This document shows positions 3,580-55,940 of a stretch of DNA of 64,000 bases, one piece after another. Origin of the DNA: Cytophagia bacterium (GTDB lineage: Bacteria > Bacteroidota > Bacteroidia > Cytophagales > Spirosomataceae); contig REAB01000049.1 of NCBI GenBank assembly GCA_004293645.1, positions 1-64,000 on the forward strand, written 5' to 3'. Each line of letters starts with the position of its first letter. The first letter of the stretch is position 1. The translations under genes were made by a program, and so were the position numbers. Below the pieces are notes generated by a model that was not told the DNA's origin, did not search any database, and was given only the letters and a program-made list of their open reading frames with translations.

Positions 3580-3793
3580 TCAGCCTTTAGGCTGGGGCAG
3601 GTACAAACAAAGACATTTTGGGGCTTTAGCCCTGACTTCTTGCAGGGCTAAAGCCCACTTTGTCGTTTACCCTACGCTAAAGCGCAGGGTTATAAGATAT
3701 CGGATTGTCGTTTACCCTACGCTAAAGCGCAGGGTTACAGGATATCGGATTGTCGTTCACTCTACGCTAAAGCGCAGGGTTATAAGATATCGG
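3580..3793. repeat. Palindrome cluster with a 45-bp tandem repeat (3 copies)
   Basis: Between two minus-strand genes. Three direct copies of a 45-bp unit lie at 3661-3705, 3706-3750 and 3751-3793 with only a few substitutions. Each holds the hairpin CCCTACGCTAAAGCGCAGGG (stems of 9 with one mismatch). Just upstream are two further inverted repeats: GGCTTTAGCCCT with AGGGCTAAAGCC (about 3623-3654), and an imperfect CAGCCTTTAGGCTG (about 3585-3600). The whole 360-bp gap 3464-3824 holds no gene. The form resembles REP-type palindromic elements. Confidence 0.8.
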
Positions 3794-3824
3794 AAGCCCT
3801 ATATCGGCTTAAACAACGTTTTTT

Positions 3825-14164: not shown

Positions 14165-17100
14165 ATGAACGTCTCAATTCTTAAAACCTACCTCAAACGC
14201 CTCACCAACCTCAGCAGTCGCAATCGTTCGTTGCTATTGAGCAGTTTACCTTCCGAGCAGTTTTTGGACATTGACGAGCTTGATTTCTTGGACAATTTTG
14301 CCTCTTTTGAAATTGTGCGGCAACTGATAGCCCAAAAAAATGTAATCAAACTCTGCGATACCGCCGACCCGCGCATGGCCAAAATCAATGAGGTGAGCAA
14401 AAAACTGCGCAAAATAGCCCACACCGAGCAATTTATTGAAGCCGAACGCGGAGCCGAAGATCTGTACGTAGGCTGGCCTTTTGTGCGGGGCAAACTCATG
14501 GACGAAACGCTCATTCACGGGCCGCTCGCATTTTTCCCAGTTACGTTAGAGCAAACCGATAAACACTGGCAACTGCGCCGCCGCGACGAACCCGCCACCC
14601 TCAATCGTAGTTTTTTGTTGGCATACAGCCATTTCAACCAAGTGCCGCTACCCGACGAACTGCTCGAACTGAACCTCAGCGAACTGGACCGCGACGCGCT
14701 CAATTTTAGAACCCAACTCTACGAATTGCTGCGCGATAGCCCCCTCAAAATCAATTTTAACCAAGATATTTTTCAAGAAAAACTTCAACCTTTTGATGTA
14801 CTCAAACCTGCCGATTTGGCTTTATTGGAACAAAACGGGGAGCTAAAACTCTATTCTGAGGCCGTCTTGGGCATATTTCCGCAGGCAGGTAGCTATTTAG
14901 CCCCCGACTATGAAACGCTGATAGAAAGGGAAAAGGAGAAAGAGGAAGGGTTAAAGGGGGAAGGGTTAAAGGAAAAAGAAGAAGAGTTAAAGGAGAAAGG
15001 AGAAAGGTTAAAGGAGAAAGGGGAAGGGTTAAAGAAAAAAGGGGAGAATGAGGAAGAAACAGGGGAAAATCTGCTGGTCGGGATTTCAATGGCAACGGCC
15101 AACCGAGAGAACAGCGAATTTTTAATTCGCAATATCAACAGCGGTAACCCAGTTAAAGAAGAACATACTTTTACGGCTTTTGCGCAAGATGCGTCGCAAG
15201 AAGAAGCTTTGCGGCGCGTCAAAGCGGGCGAGTCGTTGGTGGTGCAAGGGCCACCTGGTACGGGCAAATCGCAGCTCATTGCCAATCTGCTGTCCGACTT
15301 TGCAGCCCGGGGCAAGCGCGTGCTGTTGGTGTGCCAAAAGCGCGTGGCGCTCGATGTGGTGCATCAACGCCTCCAAAGCGTAGGTATGATGCCGTTTTTG
15401 GCCTTGATTCACGATTTTAAGAACGACCGTGGCGCACTTTATCGGCAATTGGCCGCGCAAATTGAGGAAGTAGAAAGTTACCAAAAACAAAATTATAGCC
15501 TCGATGCCATTTTTTTAGAACGCAAATTTTTGCAGAGCAGTCGCAGTATTGAGCAAGCAATGGCCGAATTGGACGAGTTCAAAACGGCTCTTTTCGACAC
15601 TTCCAACTGCGGGCTTTCGGCCAAAGAACTCTATTTGACCAGCCAGCCAAGTGCGCCCCAAATAAACCTCGATGGCGCTTTTAGAATGTTTCGATTTGAC
15701 GATAAATTAGAAGATTTTTTACGACGTATTCGGCAATATGAGGCTTATCACAACAGCTTGAATGCGGGCCATTGGTGGCACGAGCGCGTTGATTTTGCAG
15801 ATTTTAGCCTCAAAAATCTATCCGAAATAACAGCCATACTACCCGAAATACCCCGTTGGCTCACCGAAACTGGTTGTGAGTTGTCCATTTTGTTGAAAGC
15901 CGCCCCGCAAACTGCCGCCGTTGAGTCATGGCTGGGTTTACTCCAAAACCCCACCACTTGGCACTTGTTTAAAATGCAAAACGAAGGCTTTTTTGATGCC
16001 CAAGCACGCTCCTTTTTCACTAAAACCACCGCGCAACTGCACAGTTTAAGCCAACGCGGATTGCTCTCAGACGAGTTTACTACCGCCGATTTGCCGCCTT
16101 TTTCGCAACGCCTCCAGCAATTAATTGAAGCGCGAAGTAGCTGGTCAAGGTGGCTTTTTTACGCCGATAAGCCTTATTTTAAGGCAGTTGCAGCCCGTTA
16201 TGGTTTAACATTAGAGCCGACCGACCTCCACACATTAAACGATTTGGTGGCCAACCGCTTGAGTTGGGAAAACGAGTTGGCGACGTTGCACGAACGACTC
16301 GGTTTAACAATAACAGGAACTTCGCTCGCGCAGTTACAGCAACAATTAGAAGCCCTGCTGGTGGCTCACGAAAATGCCCAAAAGGCGCACCAACAATTCA
16401 AAGATGAGTTCAGTTTTTTGGAACAATTCATGGAATCTGATTTTTTTCAGTTTCAAAATCGGGTGGCTGGTTTTTTGAAAACAAGCCAAGAAACCGCCAA
16501 AAAAAACCAAGATTGGCGGCTTTATCTTACCCCAACTCAAATTAGCCAGCTCATCGCAACGCCCGACACAGCACGCCATTATGCCGACGCACTGCGGGCA
16601 GATTTTGATTTGCTCGTCGAAGCCGATAAACTCAAAAATGGCTTTTTGGACGCAGAATGGGCCATTGTGGATCAGTTGTTTGCCATTCAAAATAATTTTG
16701 CCCAACCACTGGCCGTTTTTCAAAATTCACTTCGTTTGGCTTGGCTCACGCACCTCGAGACCAAGAACCCCATTTTGCGGGCAGTTTCTTCTTTTAAAAT
16801 CAGTCAGTTGGAAGAAACGTTGCAGCAAGAAATTGTAGAAAAACAAAACCTGAGCCGCGAAATTTTACTGCTTAAACTACGTGAGCAAACCTACCAAGAT
16901 TTAGCGTTTAATCGCCTCCAAAACCGCGTTACTTACCGCGAATTACAACACCAAGTGAACAAAAAACGCAGCGTTTGGCCAGTCAGAAAACTACTCGAAA
17001 ACTACGCTGACGACGTGTTCAAACTCGTACCTTGCTGGTTGGCCTCGCCCGAATCGGTATCGGCTATGTTTCCGTTGGTAGCGGGGCTATTCGATTTGGT

Positions 17101-18217
17101 GATATTCGACGAAGCCTCGCAATGCTACGCCGAATATGGCCTGCCCGCTTTGTTTAGGGGCAAGCAAACCGTGGTGGCGGGCGACAGCAAACAACTTACT
17201 CCAACCGACCTCTACCGCGTGCGCTACGAAGTCGAAACCGACGACGAAACACCTGCTCTGGAAGTAGAATCGCTGCTCGACTTGGCCACCCAATATCTGC
17301 CACAAACCCAATTGCAGGGGCATTATCGCAGTCATTCGTTGGATTTAATTGCTTTTTCTAATCACTATTTCTACAACAATAAACTCGAACTACTACCTCA
17401 TTTTGAGGCCATTAACCAAGTTCAGCCTGCCATTAAATACCTCAAAGTGGCAGGCATATGGCAGCACAATACCAACCAAGCGGAAGCCGAGCGCGTGGTG
17501 GCGTTGGTGCAAGAGTTGCAGCAGCAATATCCCGAAAAATCCATTGGAATAGTTACCTTCAACCACCCCCAACAACAACTCATTGAGCAACTTATGTATC
17601 ATACAAATTTGTACTCCCCCGTCGGGGGGTGGGGGGCGAAAAACATCGAAAACGTGCAAGGCGACGAGCGCGACATCATTATCTTTTCGGTGGGCTACGC
17701 GCCCGATGCACAGGGCAAAATGCGGGCGCAGTTTGGAAGTTTGAACGCCCAGGGCGGCGAAAACCGCCTCAACGTGGCCGTAACCCGCGCCCGCGAACAA
17801 GTGTGGGTAGTAACGAGCATTTGGCCGGAGCAACTATTGGTCGAAAATACGGCACATGAAGGGCCTAAGTTGCTCAAAAAATACTTAGAATATGCCTTAG
17901 ACGTGTCAGAAGGGCGTTTTAAGCCTGAGCCACGCCAAACCGAAGGCTACCGAAATGACTGGTTTTTGAAACAAAAGATTCGAGAATATGACACCGATAC
18001 CTACGCTCCCCATGCCATTGAAGCCGAGCTTCCCTTTGCCGATTTGACGGTAAAAAACCAAAATGGGCAGTATCAATCGTTAATTTTAACCGACGACGAC
18101 CGCTATTTTCAGGCTATTTCGGCCAAAGAAGCGCACGCTTACTGGCCGCTGCAACTGCGCGCCAAAGGCTGGCATTTCGACCAACGTTGGAGCCGCGAAT
18201 GGTGGCGCAAACAGTAA
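14165..18217 (+). CDS. DUF4011-type SF1 helicase with C-terminal Vsr/MTES_1575-like domain
   Basis: 1350 residues. The N terminus (LKRLTNLSSRNRSLLL, then GPLAFFPVTLE) resembles DUF4011. Next is a Lys/Glu-rich linker (residues ~255-300), then a split SF1 (Upf1/Dna2-type) helicase core. Walker A GPPGTGKS is near residue 362, VIFDEASQ near 979, and motifs GHYRSHS, VQGDERDIIIFS and NVAVTRAREQVWVV follow. The last ~90 residues (LILTDDDRYFQAI, then GWHFDQRWSREWW) have the shape of the Vsr-like nuclease tail of such helicases, with the catalytic set only partly recognisable. Cytoplasmic. The architecture is often linked with antiphage or DNA-surveillance roles; here that is inference. The Uma2 gene follows after 37 bp. 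Confidence 0.85.
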   Translation: MNVSILKTYLKRLTNLSSRNRSLLLSSLPSEQFLDIDELDFLDNFASFEIVRQLIAQKNVIKLCDTADPRMAKINEVSKKLRKIAHTEQFIEAERGAEDLYVGWPFVRGKLMDETLIHGPLAFFPVTLEQTDKHWQLRRRDEPATLNRSFLLAYSHFNQVPLPDELLELNLSELDRDALNFRTQLYELLRDSPLKINFNQDIFQEKLQPFDVLKPADLALLEQNGELKLYSEAVLGIFPQAGSYLAPDYETLIEREKEKEEGLKGEGLKEKEEELKEKGERLKEKGEGLKKKGENEEETGENLLVGISMATANRENSEFLIRNINSGNPVKEEHTFTAFAQDASQEEALRRVKAGESLVVQGPPGTGKSQLIANLLSDFAARGKRVLLVCQKRVALDVVHQRLQSVGMMPFLALIHDFKNDRGALYRQLAAQIEEVESYQKQNYSLDAIFLERKFLQSSRSIEQAMAELDEFKTALFDTSNCGLSAKELYLTSQPSAPQINLDGAFRMFRFDDKLEDFLRRIRQYEAYHNSLNAGHWWHERVDFADFSLKNLSEITAILPEIPRWLTETGCELSILLKAAPQTAAVESWLGLLQNPTTWHLFKMQNEGFFDAQARSFFTKTTAQLHSLSQRGLLSDEFTTADLPPFSQRLQQLIEARSSWSRWLFYADKPYFKAVAARYGLTLEPTDLHTLNDLVANRLSWENELATLHERLGLTITGTSLAQLQQQLEALLVAHENAQKAHQQFKDEFSFLEQFMESDFFQFQNRVAGFLKTSQETAKKNQDWRLYLTPTQISQLIATPDTARHYADALRADFDLLVEADKLKNGFLDAEWAIVDQLFAIQNNFAQPLAVFQNSLRLAWLTHLETKNPILRAVSSFKISQLEETLQQEIVEKQNLSREILLLKLREQTYQDLAFNRLQNRVTYRELQHQVNKKRSVWPVRKLLENYADDVFKLVPCWLASPESVSAMFPLVAGLFDLVIFDEASQCYAEYGLPALFRGKQTVVAGDSKQLTPTDLYRVRYEVETDDETPALEVESLLDLATQYLPQTQLQGHYRSHSLDLIAFSNHYFYNNKLELLPHFEAINQVQPAIKYLKVAGIWQHNTNQAEAERVVALVQELQQQYPEKSIGIVTFNHPQQQLIEQLMYHTNLYSPVGGWGAKNIENVQGDERDIIIFSVGYAPDAQGKMRAQFGSLNAQGGENRLNVAVTRAREQVWVVTSIWPEQLLVENTAHEGPKLLKKYLEYALDVSEGRFKPEPRQTEGYRNDWFLKQKIREYDTDTYAPHAIEAELPFADLTVKNQNGQYQSLILTDDDRYFQAISAKEAHAYWPLQLRAKGWHFDQRWSREWWRKQ
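14932..15060 (+). repeat. In-frame purine-rich minisatellite inside the helicase gene
   Basis: Repeats of GGTTAAAGGAGAAAGGGGAA and shortened forms, all purine-rich on the coding strand, encode runs like LKEKGERLKEKGEGLKKKGE. The repeat keeps the frame and joins the N-terminal domain to the ATPase core. Its composition resembles the gap filler at 59507-59560 (GGAGAAAGGTGAAAGG). Confidence 0.8.
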
Positions 18218-48152: not shown

Positions 48153-48187
48153 CTTTTAGAAGTACCTTGCTTACCAAATTTTTAATT

Positions 48188-48262
48188 CAACAACCCAACA
48201 ACCCAACGACTCAACGACTCAACAACTCAACACCCAACAACTCAACAACTCAACAACTCAAA
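48188..48262. repeat. CAACAACTCA-type simple repeat
   Basis: About 75 bp of near-tandem CAACAACCCA, CAACGACTCA and CAACAACTCA decamers reach up to the ATG of the MoxR gene. Low complexity with no structure; it must be the 5' leader of moxR if transcription starts upstream. Confidence 0.8.
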
Positions 48263-50423: not shown

Positions 50424-51638
50424 TTATTGTGCTTCGTCGGTAGCTTCTGGCTGCTCTTCTACTTGTTTTTTGAACATATCTACCACCAGCGAAATCCGAA
50501 AAGTATTGGCCAATGGGCTGCCTTGACGTTGAGGCATCAAATACGCAAAATCAATACCGTAGCGGTTTTGAACCCTCGCACCAAAACCAATGGTAAAATA
50601 CTTGCGCCCGCCTTTGGCATTGGCTTCATTGAAATAACCCGCCCGCGCTGCAAACGACTCATTGTACCAATATTCAACACCCGTTGAGATTGCGAACTCG
50701 CTCAACTCTTCCCTAAAGCCATCGGGCGCGTCGCTAAAAGAACCAAACATGGCCGCAAATGTGCCTCGATTGGGGTCTTTGCCGCGTGTAACGTTACGAC
50801 TGGCATCGCGCACGGGCGGTGTTGGCACCATCAATTTGTTGAAATCTAAGATGAAAGTAACCTTGTTGTGAAAATCAATGTGGCGCGTGGCAGCACCGCT
50901 CAATTTTAAGTTGGTTGGAATAAAACCTGTTTCTGTACCACCGTAGTTTATTTTGCCGCCAATGTTTTGAATCAACAGTGCGCCCGCCATTTTCCAGCCT
51001 TTGCCCGTACTCTCATCAATGTTGCCATCGCCTTGATAAAACGCGCTGATGTCGCCCGCTACGGTTGAGCCTGGTTTCATACCAGCACCTGGGTAGCTAC
51101 CCGCCAAGTTGGAGTTGATGTATTTCATGTTCAAACCCACCGAAAGCTTATCCGATAATTTGCGTGAATAAGCCAACGAAAACAAAAACTCATTGGAAAG
51201 ATACTCACCTTCAAAACCACCCATGTTGTTCCGAGCTTCAAATTTGCCGTGGTCAAAATACATCAAACTAGCTCCAAAGGCTTGGTTTTTACCTACTTTG
51301 GCAAACCCAGAAATATAGGTAAAATACATATCGTCCACCATGCCACGCAGCCAGGGTGTGTAAGACAGCGCTACGCCATAATTTTTGGTGGATTGCGCCA
51401 ATTTAGCCGCGCCCCAATAAACGGAGTTGGCATCTGGCCCCAACGCGCCACCTGCGTCGCCCAAAGCTGCGCTGCGGGCATCGGGCGTAAAAACCGCAAA
51501 AGGCACTGCCGTGGTTACGGGGCGCAAACTGAGGGTGTCTTCACCCATAATTCCCAGTTGCTGACTGTGTCCTTTAAGGGAGAAACCGATGGCGCAAAAA
51601 ATGAAAAGCGCAAAAACGAGGATATTTTTTTTGGTCAT
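50424..51638 (-). CDS. porV: Type IX secretion outer-membrane shuttle protein PorV
   Basis: 404 residues. Signal peptide ending LKGHSQQ, then the family's DTLSLRPVTTAVPFAVFTPDARSAALGDAG, with ALGPDANSVYWGAAKLA and YTPWLRG: FadL-like barrel features that define PorV/LptO. It carries cargo from the translocon to the PorU sortase. Last strand FRISLVVDMF. It follows porU by 119 bp on the same strand, with its own TATTTTTG element, so it can be expressed apart from porU. Confidence 0.95.
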   Translation of the reverse strand: MTKKNILVFALFIFCAIGFSLKGHSQQLGIMGEDTLSLRPVTTAVPFAVFTPDARSAALGDAGGALGPDANSVYWGAAKLAQSTKNYGVALSYTPWLRGMVDDMYFTYISGFAKVGKNQAFGASLMYFDHGKFEARNNMGGFEGEYLSNEFLFSLAYSRKLSDKLSVGLNMKYINSNLAGSYPGAGMKPGSTVAGDISAFYQGDGNIDESTGKGWKMAGALLIQNIGGKINYGGTETGFIPTNLKLSGAATRHIDFHNKVTFILDFNKLMVPTPPVRDASRNVTRGKDPNRGTFAAMFGSFSDAPDGFREELSEFAISTGVEYWYNESFAARAGYFNEANAKGGRKYFTIGFGARVQNRYGIDFAYLMPQRQGSPLANTFRISLVVDMFKKQVEEQPEATDEAQ

Positions 51639-51757: not shown

Positions 51758-54700
51758 CTATCGGGCGTACAGTACTTTTTTGTGCAACGTTTGGGTTTTT
51801 TGACTCACCAACGAACGGGCGGTAAGCCGCACCAAGTACATTCCAGCGGCCACATTTTGGTTGTATCGGTTCGTCCCGTTCCAAGTTGCCACTTGCCATT
51901 TGGCATCGGTATTGTAAGAAACATACGACTCCGAAGAAATGACTTTACCGCTTAAATCCATAATTTGTACCAATACTTCGAGGTCGTCGCCTTCGGTTAG
52001 CGGGCTAATTTGAATGGTCGTTTGTTCAGAAAAAGGATTCGGGAAAACGACTACTTCTTTCAAGATGGCTTCGCGTTGCGTTACTATAAATTTTAACGTT
52101 GCCTCCGTTGAGTTATTGTAGGTGTCCCATACTTTTAGGCGCAGTTGGTGTGGCCCAGCAGGGAGCTGGCTAAACGGAAAGCGAATAGTACCTGCTCGAA
52201 AATCGTCTTGATTGGCCACAAAATAATCGTTCACGGCCAAGCGGAGGGTATCGTTGAGGGTCAAAATCATATCTTGGCCAATGCCTACCCGCGATAGATT
52301 CAAGCCATTTTCGTCGGTCAGTTTGGCTATCAACAACGGTGTATCATCTACGTTGTCGCCGTCCGTAAAATTTTCATTGTTCAAAAATAGTTGCAGCGCG
52401 GGCGGTTTGTTGTCGGTAGCAAGCAGGTCGGTGCCACCCACCAAAATTCGATTGTTGCCACCTGCCGCGTCGGTGAGGCTGTCGTTGCTAACGGCATAAA
52501 CCGATACGCGCCCATTGCCGAGTCGATAATCAATGTTTTTGGGAACCACAAACTGCACCACAAAACGCCCGTTGCGTACGGTTACTTTGCCTTCAAAGAG
52601 CTTGCTGTCAAACTGACCGTATCGCATGGGCGGGCTTTCGGTACCGCGCGTTAGGAGCTGGGTTTCTTTGTCAAATACCGATACCGTAGCCGTACCGTTG
52701 AAGGCCGTTAATAGTTGGTTTTGTTGGCGAATTTCGCCCGTTAATTGAACTAATTTGCCCGCCTTCAAGGTGTCGTTGGTGGTTACAACTATTTGATTTT
52801 CGGGATAATCCAGCCGCGCGGAAGGGTCGCCGAGGAGCGTAAAATTGCGATTTAGTACACCACTGAGGCTGTTGTTTTTGGTAATGCGCATCACGTCGCC
52901 GAGGCGTGGCATTTGGCCATCAATGGGCTGAAAAACAGTGCCATAAAACGCTTGATTAAGCAAAAAATTAGTATTGGCAAACACGGGTCGCGCGGTGGTA
53001 AGCATGGCAATGGCTCCGCCGCGCGGACTCAAAACGGCCAGTTCTGCCCCCGAAACCACGTTTGGGTTGTCAAAACGGCCAAACTCGCAGGTGGCCGTAA
53101 CCATGAGCGGCAGCTTGTTGAGATTGCGCCAACCAAACAAATCTTGCAACGTCAAAATCTGCTCTTCGGCCCAAATAGACTCGCCGCCGTGGCCAGTGTA
53201 GTTTAAAATAAGCGTGCCGTTGTTTACGGTTTGGTCAATGCGGCGGTTTATTTCGGGGGCGCGTTGGGTAGCCGTAGAAACCACCTGCTGAAAAGCATCC
53301 ACGTAAATTTTGGTGAGGTCGTAAGTGCTGGTATTGCGTTCAATAATTCGTGCCAAATCGTCGGCATCTTGTTGGTGAATGTTGGAGTCGCCGTCGTCGG
53401 CTACAAAAGCTACCCGCTGTTGCCAACGGCCACGGCTATTTTTTTGGGTATAATTGATGAGTTTATCCACCAGTACGCGGGCTTCTTCGCGGCTTTTGGC
53501 GGGCAAACGCCCCACTCCCACATCAAGCAAATGGTTGCCGCCGTAGTCTTCAGTCCATTGGCCATCGTTGGGTTTTAGGAAGCCAAAAAAATCGTCGGAC
53601 GAGTAACTAAAAACGGGCTGCGCTGATTCTCGGCTTTCGTAAGTTGGCACAAAATTGGCCATTTGTACGGCTTCTTGGTTGCGGGTATTGTTTTTAAAAT
53701 CGAAAGACGCATCGCCAAATAGCAACAAGTATTTGAGCTTATTGGGCTGGCGGTCGTTGAGGTATTTGGCAAAATCTCGAATGGCTACGGGGTCGAGTCT
53801 TCCCGACGAAAACTCGTTGAATACTTGTGGTATTGTAACCACCAACACATCTAATTTGTCGTGCGTTTTACGAAAATTGGCCAGTCTTTGAGCTTGGGCC
53901 AGCCATGCCGCACCCGTAACGATGAGCAAATCGGGCGTGGCGGCGGCGCGTAGTTTTTGGTTGGCCACCGCTACCGCCGAAACGGGCGTTTGCAATTGAG
54001 TTTCAGTAAATAAGAGAAAGCGTCGCAATGCGCGACCCGCCGCGCCAAAAACTGCTTCTTGACCATTGAGCCGTAGTAGTTGGTTGCGCGGGCGTAAGCC
54101 GTCGGTTACGTCCCACACTTGCAATGCTGCCGTGGCTTGGCCAATGGTATATTGCACCGAGTCTTGCTGCAAACTGGCCAAACTTTGTACCACCGTTGGT
54201 TCGTCGTAAAAGCGCAGCGTTCGTCTAAATTGTACGCCCAAAAAATCGAGATAGCCCTCGGCAGTGCTTTGCCCCGCTTTGTCAAAAACCACGCCCACGC
54301 GCAAACGGCTGGCCTCGGGCGGGAGCGTACCCGCGTGGGCTTGCAGCGTACGTTGGCCTTTGAGGTCGTAGCGGTAGGTAGAAACGGTGGCTATATTTTG
54401 CGAACCAACGGCCTGCCCGTTGAGCAGCAAATTAAATTTTGTAACTACTTGTGCCGCCGCCACTGTGGCCGCGTGGAGCAAAAAAGGCGTGTTTGGTTGT
54501 GCGCCAAGCGTTTCAAAAACAAACTCTTGTTGGGCTTGACTACCAAAATACTCGCCCCACCATTCGCGTCCCGACTGAATGCGATTGACTGACTCGGTTT
54601 CTCGAAAAACGTATTCGTCGTAAAAATTGATAAGTGGGCCGCTGGTACCTGCTCGCTGGTCGGCAAGTCGAAGTCCAGGGGCATTGCCCAATTGTAAAAA

Positions 54701-55198
54701 GTAAAAAGTAGTGTCTGAGTACAAATTGAGCTGGTGTTCGAGTCTGTTCTGGGCCGCATTCAACCGAATTTCGTGCGGGCTTTGTCCAAAAAACCAGAGT
54801 GCGTCGCTTTCGTCAAAACGGCCATCAGCTTCGCCTTTCACCAATACGGCGTTTTCTACCAAATCGGTGGCGCGGGGTTGGGCGTTGGGTTGGGGCAGCA
54901 TGGCCCCGCCGTTGCCAAAAAGTCGCAAGTTTTTGGGATTTATGTCGGAGATATTAACGCCCAATTGCCGAAAAAACGCGGCATCTAAGCGGTAAATGCT
55001 CGTTTTGGTTACGCCAATCTTAAAAGTTTTTCCTTCCGCAAGAACGGAGTTTTGAGCAAGTGAAAAGTGGAAAGTGAAAAAAGTGAAGAGTGAAAAGTGG
55101 AAAGTGAAAAGTGAGAAACGGCGAGTCCAACGTCGAACGTCCGCATACGCGCAGTCCAATGTCGAACGTCCGCAGACGCGCAGTCCAATGTCGAGCAT
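51758..55198 (-). CDS. porU: Type IX secretion sortase PorU
   Basis: 1146 residues from the ATG at 55198. Gingipain-like C25 peptidase: catalytic His in LNYTGHGGESIWAEEQ and Cys in LMVTATCEFGRFDNP. GGAIAMLTTARPVFAN follows, as in PorU. The C terminus (VVVFPNPFSEQTTI, GMYLVRLTARS) is a T9SS-type C-terminal domain that itself marks it for export. PorU cuts the sorting domain of cargo and joins it to A-LPS. Its signal peptide (FSLFTFHFSLFTFFTFHFSL) is encoded by a run of AGTGAAAAGTGG-type repeat. An ATG at 55234 would overlap the SprT-like gene. Confidence 0.94.
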   Translation of the reverse strand: MLDIGLRVCGRSTLDCAYADVRRWTRRFSLFTFHFSLFTFFTFHFSLAQNSVLAEGKTFKIGVTKTSIYRLDAAFFRQLGVNISDINPKNLRLFGNGGAMLPQPNAQPRATDLVENAVLVKGEADGRFDESDALWFFGQSPHEIRLNAAQNRLEHQLNLYSDTTFYFLQLGNAPGLRLADQRAGTSGPLINFYDEYVFRETESVNRIQSGREWWGEYFGSQAQQEFVFETLGAQPNTPFLLHAATVAAAQVVTKFNLLLNGQAVGSQNIATVSTYRYDLKGQRTLQAHAGTLPPEASRLRVGVVFDKAGQSTAEGYLDFLGVQFRRTLRFYDEPTVVQSLASLQQDSVQYTIGQATAALQVWDVTDGLRPRNQLLRLNGQEAVFGAAGRALRRFLLFTETQLQTPVSAVAVANQKLRAAATPDLLIVTGAAWLAQAQRLANFRKTHDKLDVLVVTIPQVFNEFSSGRLDPVAIRDFAKYLNDRQPNKLKYLLLFGDASFDFKNNTRNQEAVQMANFVPTYESRESAQPVFSYSSDDFFGFLKPNDGQWTEDYGGNHLLDVGVGRLPAKSREEARVLVDKLINYTQKNSRGRWQQRVAFVADDGDSNIHQQDADDLARIIERNTSTYDLTKIYVDAFQQVVSTATQRAPEINRRIDQTVNNGTLILNYTGHGGESIWAEEQILTLQDLFGWRNLNKLPLMVTATCEFGRFDNPNVVSGAELAVLSPRGGAIAMLTTARPVFANTNFLLNQAFYGTVFQPIDGQMPRLGDVMRITKNNSLSGVLNRNFTLLGDPSARLDYPENQIVVTTNDTLKAGKLVQLTGEIRQQNQLLTAFNGTATVSVFDKETQLLTRGTESPPMRYGQFDSKLFEGKVTVRNGRFVVQFVVPKNIDYRLGNGRVSVYAVSNDSLTDAAGGNNRILVGGTDLLATDNKPPALQLFLNNENFTDGDNVDDTPLLIAKLTDENGLNLSRVGIGQDMILTLNDTLRLAVNDYFVANQDDFRAGTIRFPFSQLPAGPHQLRLKVWDTYNNSTEATLKFIVTQREAILKEVVVFPNPFSEQTTIQISPLTEGDDLEVLVQIMDLSGKVISSESYVSYNTDAKWQVATWNGTNRYNQNVAAGMYLVRLTARSLVSQKTQTLHKKVLYAR
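55059..55198 (-). repeat. Repeat block that encodes the PorU signal peptide
   Basis: Two repeat types side by side. 55059-55114 is about five copies of AGTGAAAAGTGGAA-like units, read on the minus strand as FSLFTF/FTFHFSL. 55120-55198 is nearly three copies of a 29-bp unit (core CAGTCCAATGTCGAACGTCC), which supplies MLDIGLRVCGRSTLDCAYAD. Both look like gap filler rather than evolved coding sequence. Confidence 0.8.
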
Positions 55199-55208
55199 CG
55201 AAAGTTCA

Positions 55209-55805
55209 TTAAGCGCACTTTTGAACCAAAACATGGGCGGGGACGGTGTAGCGTTTTTGCGATTGTTGTTCAATACAAACGATGCGGGTACGGCGCATGG
55301 TACTGCGAATAAATATTTTTTTGTCCAATTCAAAGAGTGTTCCTTCGGCCAATTGGCTCACCATCACCAAATTGGTGTCGGGTTGGTCAATGGCTTTGAG
55401 GGCTTGCATGAGCGGCAAATGCGAACCCGTGGAGGCTTTTGGGGCGCGGGCGTAGTGGAGCAATGGTACAAGCACGGCATCAGGAAAAACGTCTGGGTTC
55501 ATTACGGGTACGAGCAACGCCCGAAAATGATTTTGCCAAGCCGTGCCGTGGGGCGGTTGGCGGCGTTTGTAAGTTCTAAACACTTCCAAATGTGCCACTT
55601 CGTGCAAATAAGTGATTAAAAAACTATACACATTCAAATTTTGATTGACCGTAATTTGGTCACGCTTGCCTGTTTCGGCCCGAAAATCGCCGAGGCGCGT
55701 GCGGCGGGGGCGCGTGGCAATGAAGTCGAACTGGTAGCGCAGCCACAAATCGTGGCAGTAGTTTAAGGCCGCTACTGGCACGTGCTGCTGCAAAATTTCT
55801 TTCAT
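55209..55805 (-). CDS. SprT-like metalloprotease-type protein
   Basis: 198 residues from the ATG at 55805 (a GTG at 55820 is an alternative). The zinc signature lies in YLHEVAHLEVF (HExxH variant), with a third site further on (PPHGTAWQNHFR), as in SprT/Spartan. The C-terminal part includes FIRSTMRRTRIVCIE and is shared by Bacteroidota SprT-like proteins. Possibly involved in protein or DNA-protein crosslink turnover; untested. Upstream of porU on the same strand with an 10-bp gap, so porU may be transcribed with it. Confidence 0.83.
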   Translation of the reverse strand: MKEILQQHVPVAALNYCHDLWLRYQFDFIATRPRRTRLGDFRAETGKRDQITVNQNLNVYSFLITYLHEVAHLEVFRTYKRRQPPHGTAWQNHFRALLVPVMNPDVFPDAVLVPLLHYARAPKASTGSHLPLMQALKAIDQPDTNLVMVSQLAEGTLFELDKKIFIRSTMRRTRIVCIEQQSQKRYTVPAHVLVQKCA

Positions 55806-55940
55806 CAAATCTTTGCTCACGATAATTTCTCTTTAAAACCGACTACAAACTAACGTTAAAATCTGCACTTTTGCTCAACGAACCAAGTCGAAAACATTTT
55901 GGTTTTCTAAATTAACAACTTAACAACTAAATTTTAACTA

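Follow-up and report, generated by a model that had tools for sequence, protein, structure and literature searches.

The gene for PorU, the sortase of the type IX secretion system, opens in an uncultured Runella relative with a leader written largely in tandem-repeat DNA, and this raises the question of whether the signal peptide of a conserved secretion enzyme has here been rebuilt from repeats, and by what route. The locus lies in the window analysed here, the whole 64,000-nucleotide stretch at the start of contig REAB01000049.1, which derives from a draft genome of 241 contigs that is 91% complete.

The porU locus and its leader

The translated porU product matches the PorU profile NF033707 with 1294.4 bits (cut-off: 420) and contains a Peptidase_C25 domain (1.5e-107), so that both the curated model and the C25 domain by which this sortase is recognised were found, as was the neighbour expected of such a locus, PorV (NF033710; 414.8 bits), encoded directly downstream at 50424-51638. 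The SprT-like product on the other side scores 25.3 bits, slightly below the gathering score of 25.6, and the end of the gene preceding porU is similar in Runella and in Spirosoma-type relatives. A plasmid collection gave no match and Rfam no RNA family, and a promoter and terminator scan returned nothing above chance level. The features of the locus are listed in Table 1.

Table 1. Position of genes, repeat arrays and candidate start codons at the porU locus (window coordinates).
Feature	Position	Strand	Remark
porU, type IX secretion system sortase	51758..55234	minus	taken from the upstream in-frame ATG
Codons Ala-Gln, probable signal peptidase end	55052..55057	minus	predicted cleavage, read from the sequence and relatives
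Imperfect heptamer array, TTCACTT on the coding strand	55058..55115	minus	codes the hydrophobic core FSLFTFHFSLFTFFTFHFS
29-bp tandem array, 2.4 copies	55124..55194	minus	codes the lengthened, arginine-bearing n-region
Third in-frame start codon, TTG	55157..55159	minus	within the 29-bp array
Second in-frame ATG	55196..55198	minus	start assumed in the sequence-only reading
ATG in the +1 frame	55207..55209	minus	overlaps the sprT-like stop as TAATG; out of porU frame in the assembly
Probable ancestral start ATG	55232..55234	minus	in frame with porU; overlaps the sprT-like stop by 26 nt
SprT-like gene	55209..55820	minus	directly upstream of porU

The N-terminus of PorU, translated from the minus strand, reads MLDIGLRVCGRSTLDCAYADVRRWTRRFSLFTFHFSLFTFFTFHFSLAQNSVLAEGKTFK... 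and its coding DNA was resolved by Tandem Repeats Finder into an array of period 7 (55058-55114; 7.9 copies; 80% matches) and an array of period 29 (95% matches). Matches to AAAAGTGGAAAGTGAAA with at most three mismatches number five in the window, against 0.5 expected, and all fall within the heptamer array, while the 29-bp unit is matched twice against an expectation of zero. The sequence-only reading had derived the ATG, the n-region and the core from two tandem-repeat types; both arrays are confirmed, but the second unit is 7 bp rather than 12 bp in length. The 12-bp unit was a misreading, since AGTGAAAAGTGG consists of the heptamer AAGTGAA / TTCACTT with substitutions. The inverted ends that would mark a MITE or palindromic element are absent at porU, where only a single arm (55058-55115) is found.

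The peptide coded by the heptamer array is followed by LAQ, and the 29-bp array codes most of the stretch preceding it. The leader has the pattern RR..RR before the core and ends in SLAQ, an (A/S/G)Q end being found in nearly all relatives, and its core has a hydrophobicity, by two simple scales, within the limits set by 98 relatives. That a repeat-coded leader ending in SLAQ stands ahead of the conserved part, as had been proposed, is borne out by the NF033707 match, which starts at residue 52 (counted from ATG 55198), directly after the leader.

The start codon from which this leader is read admits more than one candidate. ATG 55198 borders on an incomplete copy of the 29-bp unit, while ATG 55234 lies outside the repeats. 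In Spirosoma-type relatives (e.g. L020-L023) porU begins with the same 26-nt sprT overlap, ATGTTTGGGTGGAAAAAGCGGAATAA, and the N-terminus read from ATG 55234, MFWFKSALN..., has the counterpart MFGWKKRNK... in relatives. This overlap is good evidence for ATG 55234, though short of proof because the C-terminal codons of SprT partly force that ATG, and it suggests that the ancestral porU start probably overlapped sprT. The in-frame ATG at 55198 is thus present as previously read, but as sole start it is uncertain, and ATG 55234, which fits the overlap geometry of the relatives, appears at least as likely. No start codons were found between the heptamer array and the conserved mature domain, and every candidate start therefore yields an identical hydrophobic core.

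Heptamer arrays in this genome and its relatives

The whole genome was searched with three heptamers at up to three mismatches, and the 64 matches merged to 25 places. Fourteen of these 25 arrays sit in gene signal peptides in the sense orientation, the classes having been set by eye, which corresponds to a p of about 5e-21 if signal-peptide DNA is assumed to occupy 1.2% of the genome and to 1.5e-8 at an assumed share of 10%. A broader heptamer pattern adds five genes, giving 19 in total with PorU included, and most of their products carry Pfam domains typical of exported or envelope proteins. Fourteen contain, respectively, PIG-L, OstA_2, RraA-like, beta-lactamase, bMG3 (lipoprotein), DUF2911, GHL10, Peptidase_M1 (weak), TonB receptor, gamma-glutamyltranspeptidase (GGT), Lnb_N, TPR (lipoprotein), NamZ and cytochrome c (lipoprotein) domains, while four lack a Pfam match, one of them being a paralogue of the M1 protein. 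Examples of the repeat-coded leaders are MKKLLLLLFTLHFSLFTLKAQ, MKKITFLLFYFSLFTFHFALSQ and MRFVTPLLFIFYFSLFTLSAQ. It had been anticipated that the unit would also occur in gaps elsewhere; the 7-bp unit does recur, but mostly within further signal peptides of this genome, and for the 29-bp unit the expectation failed, as the genome search (up to three mismatches) found one further relative, inside a protein gene.

Further observations concern these and other repeats. DNA related to the 29-bp unit (L008, about 593-700; G000:C194) lies in frame in an FAD-linked oxidase with 4Fe-4S domains, as the apparent linker DVRRSTSNIGHSTLDVGHSILDYASADAGHLTLD. The purest TTCACTT array of the genome, with about 10 units (L002; G000:C228:10707-10783), is located outside any reading frame of at least 90 codons on both strands and would be the best candidate for copy-number variation. 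Within the window, an 8-bp array (TCAACAAC) at 48187-48261 is open into the 5′ end of an ORF starting MAQAKIAEIIEEMSRVVVGQEKL (MoxR-like by eye), and a 45-bp unit, TTGTCGTTTACCCTACGCTAAAGCGCAGGGTTATAAGATATCGGA, which contains an inverted repeat (CCCTACGCTAAAGCGCAGGG), occurs three times at 3660-3794, the copies being 93% alike. Further likely repeat DNA in hydrophobic segments was seen in L262 (Runella G102), L266 (Runella G118), L151 (G029) and L007 (G000:C162); these four comprise a TonB receptor leader with a hairpin-like filler n-region, a lipoprotein leader and two membrane proteins.

Orthologues of the repeat-led genes carry other leaders. The RraA-like protein shares 88-91% amino acid identity with four Runella orthologues over the mature part searched, while the leaders, which in Runella include MKKLIILFSLLASQVSLIA and MKKLFLFSLLLSSLLLSPAFA, are unrelated, and the orthologue leaders of the GGT, GHL10, OstA, M1 and NamZ proteins differ too, although unrelated leaders alone prove little, as signal peptides diverge fast anyway. 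The porU genes of Runella relatives, whose products are 57-61% identical, likewise have different leaders, and the alignment of the porU 5′ ends that the sequence-only reading had called for places unrelated signal peptides ahead of the same mature start. In R. limosa DSM 17973 the porU leader contains 93 nt of in-frame filler that is missing in R. defluvii and in genome G074, while Runella HJF.20 contains 36 nt of in-frame filler; these Runella inserts all precede the same conserved core and SWGQNQ end, and a CCAAACY heptamer array forms part of the Runella insert. A third heptamer, CATTATT, is found in four Spirosoma porU leaders and is translated as IIHYSLF in each of the three frames. On these alignments, heptamer DNA appears to have entered the porU leader at least three times. 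The porU n-regions of a Cytophagaceae MAG (L080) and of Emticicia agri (L083), SERSRREEE and LPERSRGARSAN, look like yet another kind of filler, which suggests that insertions are generally received at the junction of sprT and porU.

Copies in the opposite orientation occupy different places. Purine-strand copies were found in frame in RsmA (RrnaAD), a class III aminotransferase, a histidine kinase, a PSD1 protein, a PspC protein and the bMG3 lipoprotein, where they read as charged linkers, e.g. KVKGERGKVEDES. The sense orientation accounts for 19 signal peptides and one membrane protein, against none and six for the opposite orientation (Fisher p: 3e-5), a test that rests on small counts and on signal-peptide and linker classes set by eye. 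In RsmA, the rRNA adenine dimethylase (L204, 1204-2064; G000:C86), the filler lies just ahead of the NFPYNISS motif. The window also harbors an in-frame purine-strand heptamer array at 14923-15045, within a 1350-aa helicase-like ORF (14165-18214, plus strand; VVQGPPGTGKSQ motif), where it is translated as a charged linker of 41 aa (REKEKEEGLKGEGLKEKEEELKEKG...), so that the arrangement at PorU is seen here in mirror image.

Across the family, perfect 21-bp arrays have a patchy distribution, with 7/222 genomes containing them, and an order-wide exact search found them in 4/390 genomes, all within this family. Heptamer matches are abundant in genomes G032 (134) and G205 (263). Most of those inspected fall between genes, where they often form inverted arms immediately ahead of start codons, and among roughly 37 inspected G032 arrays two are clear signal peptides; the repeat as such is therefore not bound to signal peptides. 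To judge from these placements its usual home is the gap before genes, while among the copies in the genome of the window those in signal peptides dominate, perhaps as the ones that selection keeps. The inverted arms (AAAAGTGAAAAGTG...CACTTTTCACTT) before start codons, seen at L152, L156 and L162 in G205 and at L298-L317 in G032, resemble hairpin elements of 5′ leaders.

Reading frames and competing explanations

An array of TTCACTT reads FTFHFSL without a stop in all three sense frames, since 7 is coprime to 3 and three units contain every reading register, while the antisense frames of the pure unit all read K*KVKSE, with one stop per seven codons. A sense-oriented array behind a start codon therefore forms an open hydrophobic stretch in any frame. 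At porU the 29-bp array is likewise open in all three sense frames, and each of the three frames has a start codon ahead of the heptamer array. The proposal that slippage might tune PorU export found no support, as units of 7 and 29 bp, neither divisible by three, shift the frame rather than trim the peptide.

The repetition could in principle have arisen at the level of the protein, through selection for F, L, S and T, with the DNA pattern a by-product of few codons and composition. Signal peptides are rich in these residues, and some Runella leaders are similar in style (MPLKNLLFLFLVSFSLFAQ). However, when codons were redrawn 300 times per leader with the amino acids kept and the codon usage of these genes applied, lag-7 DNA identity lay above nearly all redraws in 18 of the 19 leaders (fraction at or above the observed value: <0.05), while lags 6 and 8 were unremarkable, a result that is not free of selection in that the sites had been picked by DNA motif. 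The exception, C198, fails both measures, as on the 21-mer match neither it nor C225 rises above the redraws. The larger Runella genomes, which must likewise hold hundreds of signal peptides, are matched by the same heptamer pattern 0-14 times, compared with 64 times in the present genome; a mirror control of this search is meaningless, as the heptamer pattern is the same when read backwards. Furthermore, these same arrays are present in gaps as well as, in reversed orientation, within genes, and the R. limosa insert is plainly filler. We consider convergence at the protein level improbable on this evidence. Unbiased period spectra covered 212 kb from this genome and 400 kb from Runella; the former sample is nearly array-free and was unused for enrichment, while in the latter periods 7, 14, 21 and 28 are prominent.

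A unit that is not divisible by three and is placed in a leader also recalls the opa genes, and gain or loss of a unit might shift the frame and turn porU, and with it type IX secretion, on or off; ATG 55209 is one frame off, and gain or loss of a single unit would align it with porU. Known phase-variable switches carry long pure tracts, whereas the longest pure period-7 tract in the porU array is 14 bp, or two units, which makes frequent slippage unlikely. A leader repeat with a period not divisible by three (here 7) is thus shared with opa-type leaders, but the long slippable tract is lacking, and with upstream starts in all three frames a frame change need not turn porU off. A phase-variable switch is accordingly very improbable. 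Slightly less credence still is due to an artefact, be it a misassembly of the arrays or a wrong gene model in which the true PorU start lies elsewhere and the array belongs to untranslated leader DNA. The draft state of the genome would allow for this, but the same pattern recurs in nineteen genes spread over many contigs, porU leaders with filler or heptamers are also present in the genomes of isolates (R. limosa DSM 17973, Spirosoma type strains), and a start later than the array would leave PorU without a signal peptide.

We consider it probable that the signal peptide of PorU was remade from repeats, which best explains the observations and agrees with the sequence-only reading: DNA more 7-periodic than the amino acids require, the frame property, the recurrence across the genome, the unrelated leaders of orthologues, and the filled and empty porU sites of Runella. 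The ancestral leader, with its ATG overlapping the sprT stop, would have retained a few initial codons along with the AQ end, while a heptamer array replaced the hydrophobic core and the 29-bp array lengthened the n-region, this being the presumed direction of change. A sense array behind a start codon would tend to provide a usable Sec core, and signal peptides may tolerate such a swap in that hydrophobicity, and not a given sequence, is required. The same event would have been repeated in the 19 genes of this genome, presumably through spread of the repeat, and related genera would have undergone it at porU with different heptamers, while the only in-frame filler found in the opposite orientation forms charged linkers within proteins. 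More tentatively, and with slightly less than an even chance of being correct, we suggest that heptamer filler serves throughout the Spirosomaceae as a frame-proof source of export signals, with one orientation providing cores and the other linkers, the leaders acting as a selective refuge, and the porU leader being robust to the gain or loss of units.

Comparison with known systems

The origin of new signal peptides has been argued mostly from random-sequence experiments. The porU genes of sister species, with 0, 36 and 93 nt of in-frame filler, provide a natural series with intermediates, while in the genome of the window a single heptamer family encodes some 19 leaders, those of conserved envelope proteins among them, pointing to a concrete route from repeat DNA to a predicted Sec export signal. 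The underlying rule, namely a period not divisible by three and a pyrimidine strand that is stop-free and hydrophobic in every frame, can be counted in any genome, and it carries a warning for annotation, in that repeat-coded N-termini can be true leaders. We found no description of heptamer-coded signal peptides in this family in the open literature, and neither the supply of many conserved-gene leaders per genome by one heptamer family, nor the parallel porU events, nor the orientation split was found described.

Related phenomena have been reported in other organisms. Signal peptides derived from MITEs and palindromic inserts in frame have been described for the Yersinia YPAL/RU-2 locus YPO1552 and for the Rickettsia RPE (PMC2229807). 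There, as here, repeat DNA of gaps is fused in frame to coding sequence, in one case forming part of a signal peptide; those elements, however, are about 100-170 bp in size, have defined ends and are mainly fused to new or hypothetical genes or inserted in proteins, whereas at porU a 7-bp microsatellite-like array replaces leaders of conserved genes. TAACTGA heptamers in Beggiatoaceae, Cyanobacteria and some Bacteroidetes are located mostly upstream of starts and have been proposed to act in translational regulation, the authors pointing out that stop codons in one orientation shape the possible placement (PMC4679880). Heptamer arrays and a strand-dependent tolerance are common to both systems, but the heptamer is a different one and no signal-peptide role is reported in the available text of that source (PMC4679880). 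In yeast, de novo membrane proteins arise from thymine-rich DNA, which shares with the present case the tendency of pyrimidine-rich non-coding DNA to encode hydrophobic segments, but which concerns the birth of new small genes rather than leader replacement in old bacterial genes (PMC7005711).

In Neisseria opa, a CTCTT coding repeat is located in the leader peptide, and its slippage switches surface antigens on and off (PMC3960869, PMC3899988). The porU array differs in being imperfect, with a period of 7, in belonging to a conserved secretion enzyme, and in a unit that is common to many unrelated genes. Both are nevertheless short, pyrimidine-rich tandem repeats of a leader with a period coprime to three, stop-free and hydrophobic in every frame (LFSSL in opa), and by this analogy the opa repeat is the closest known system in working principle.
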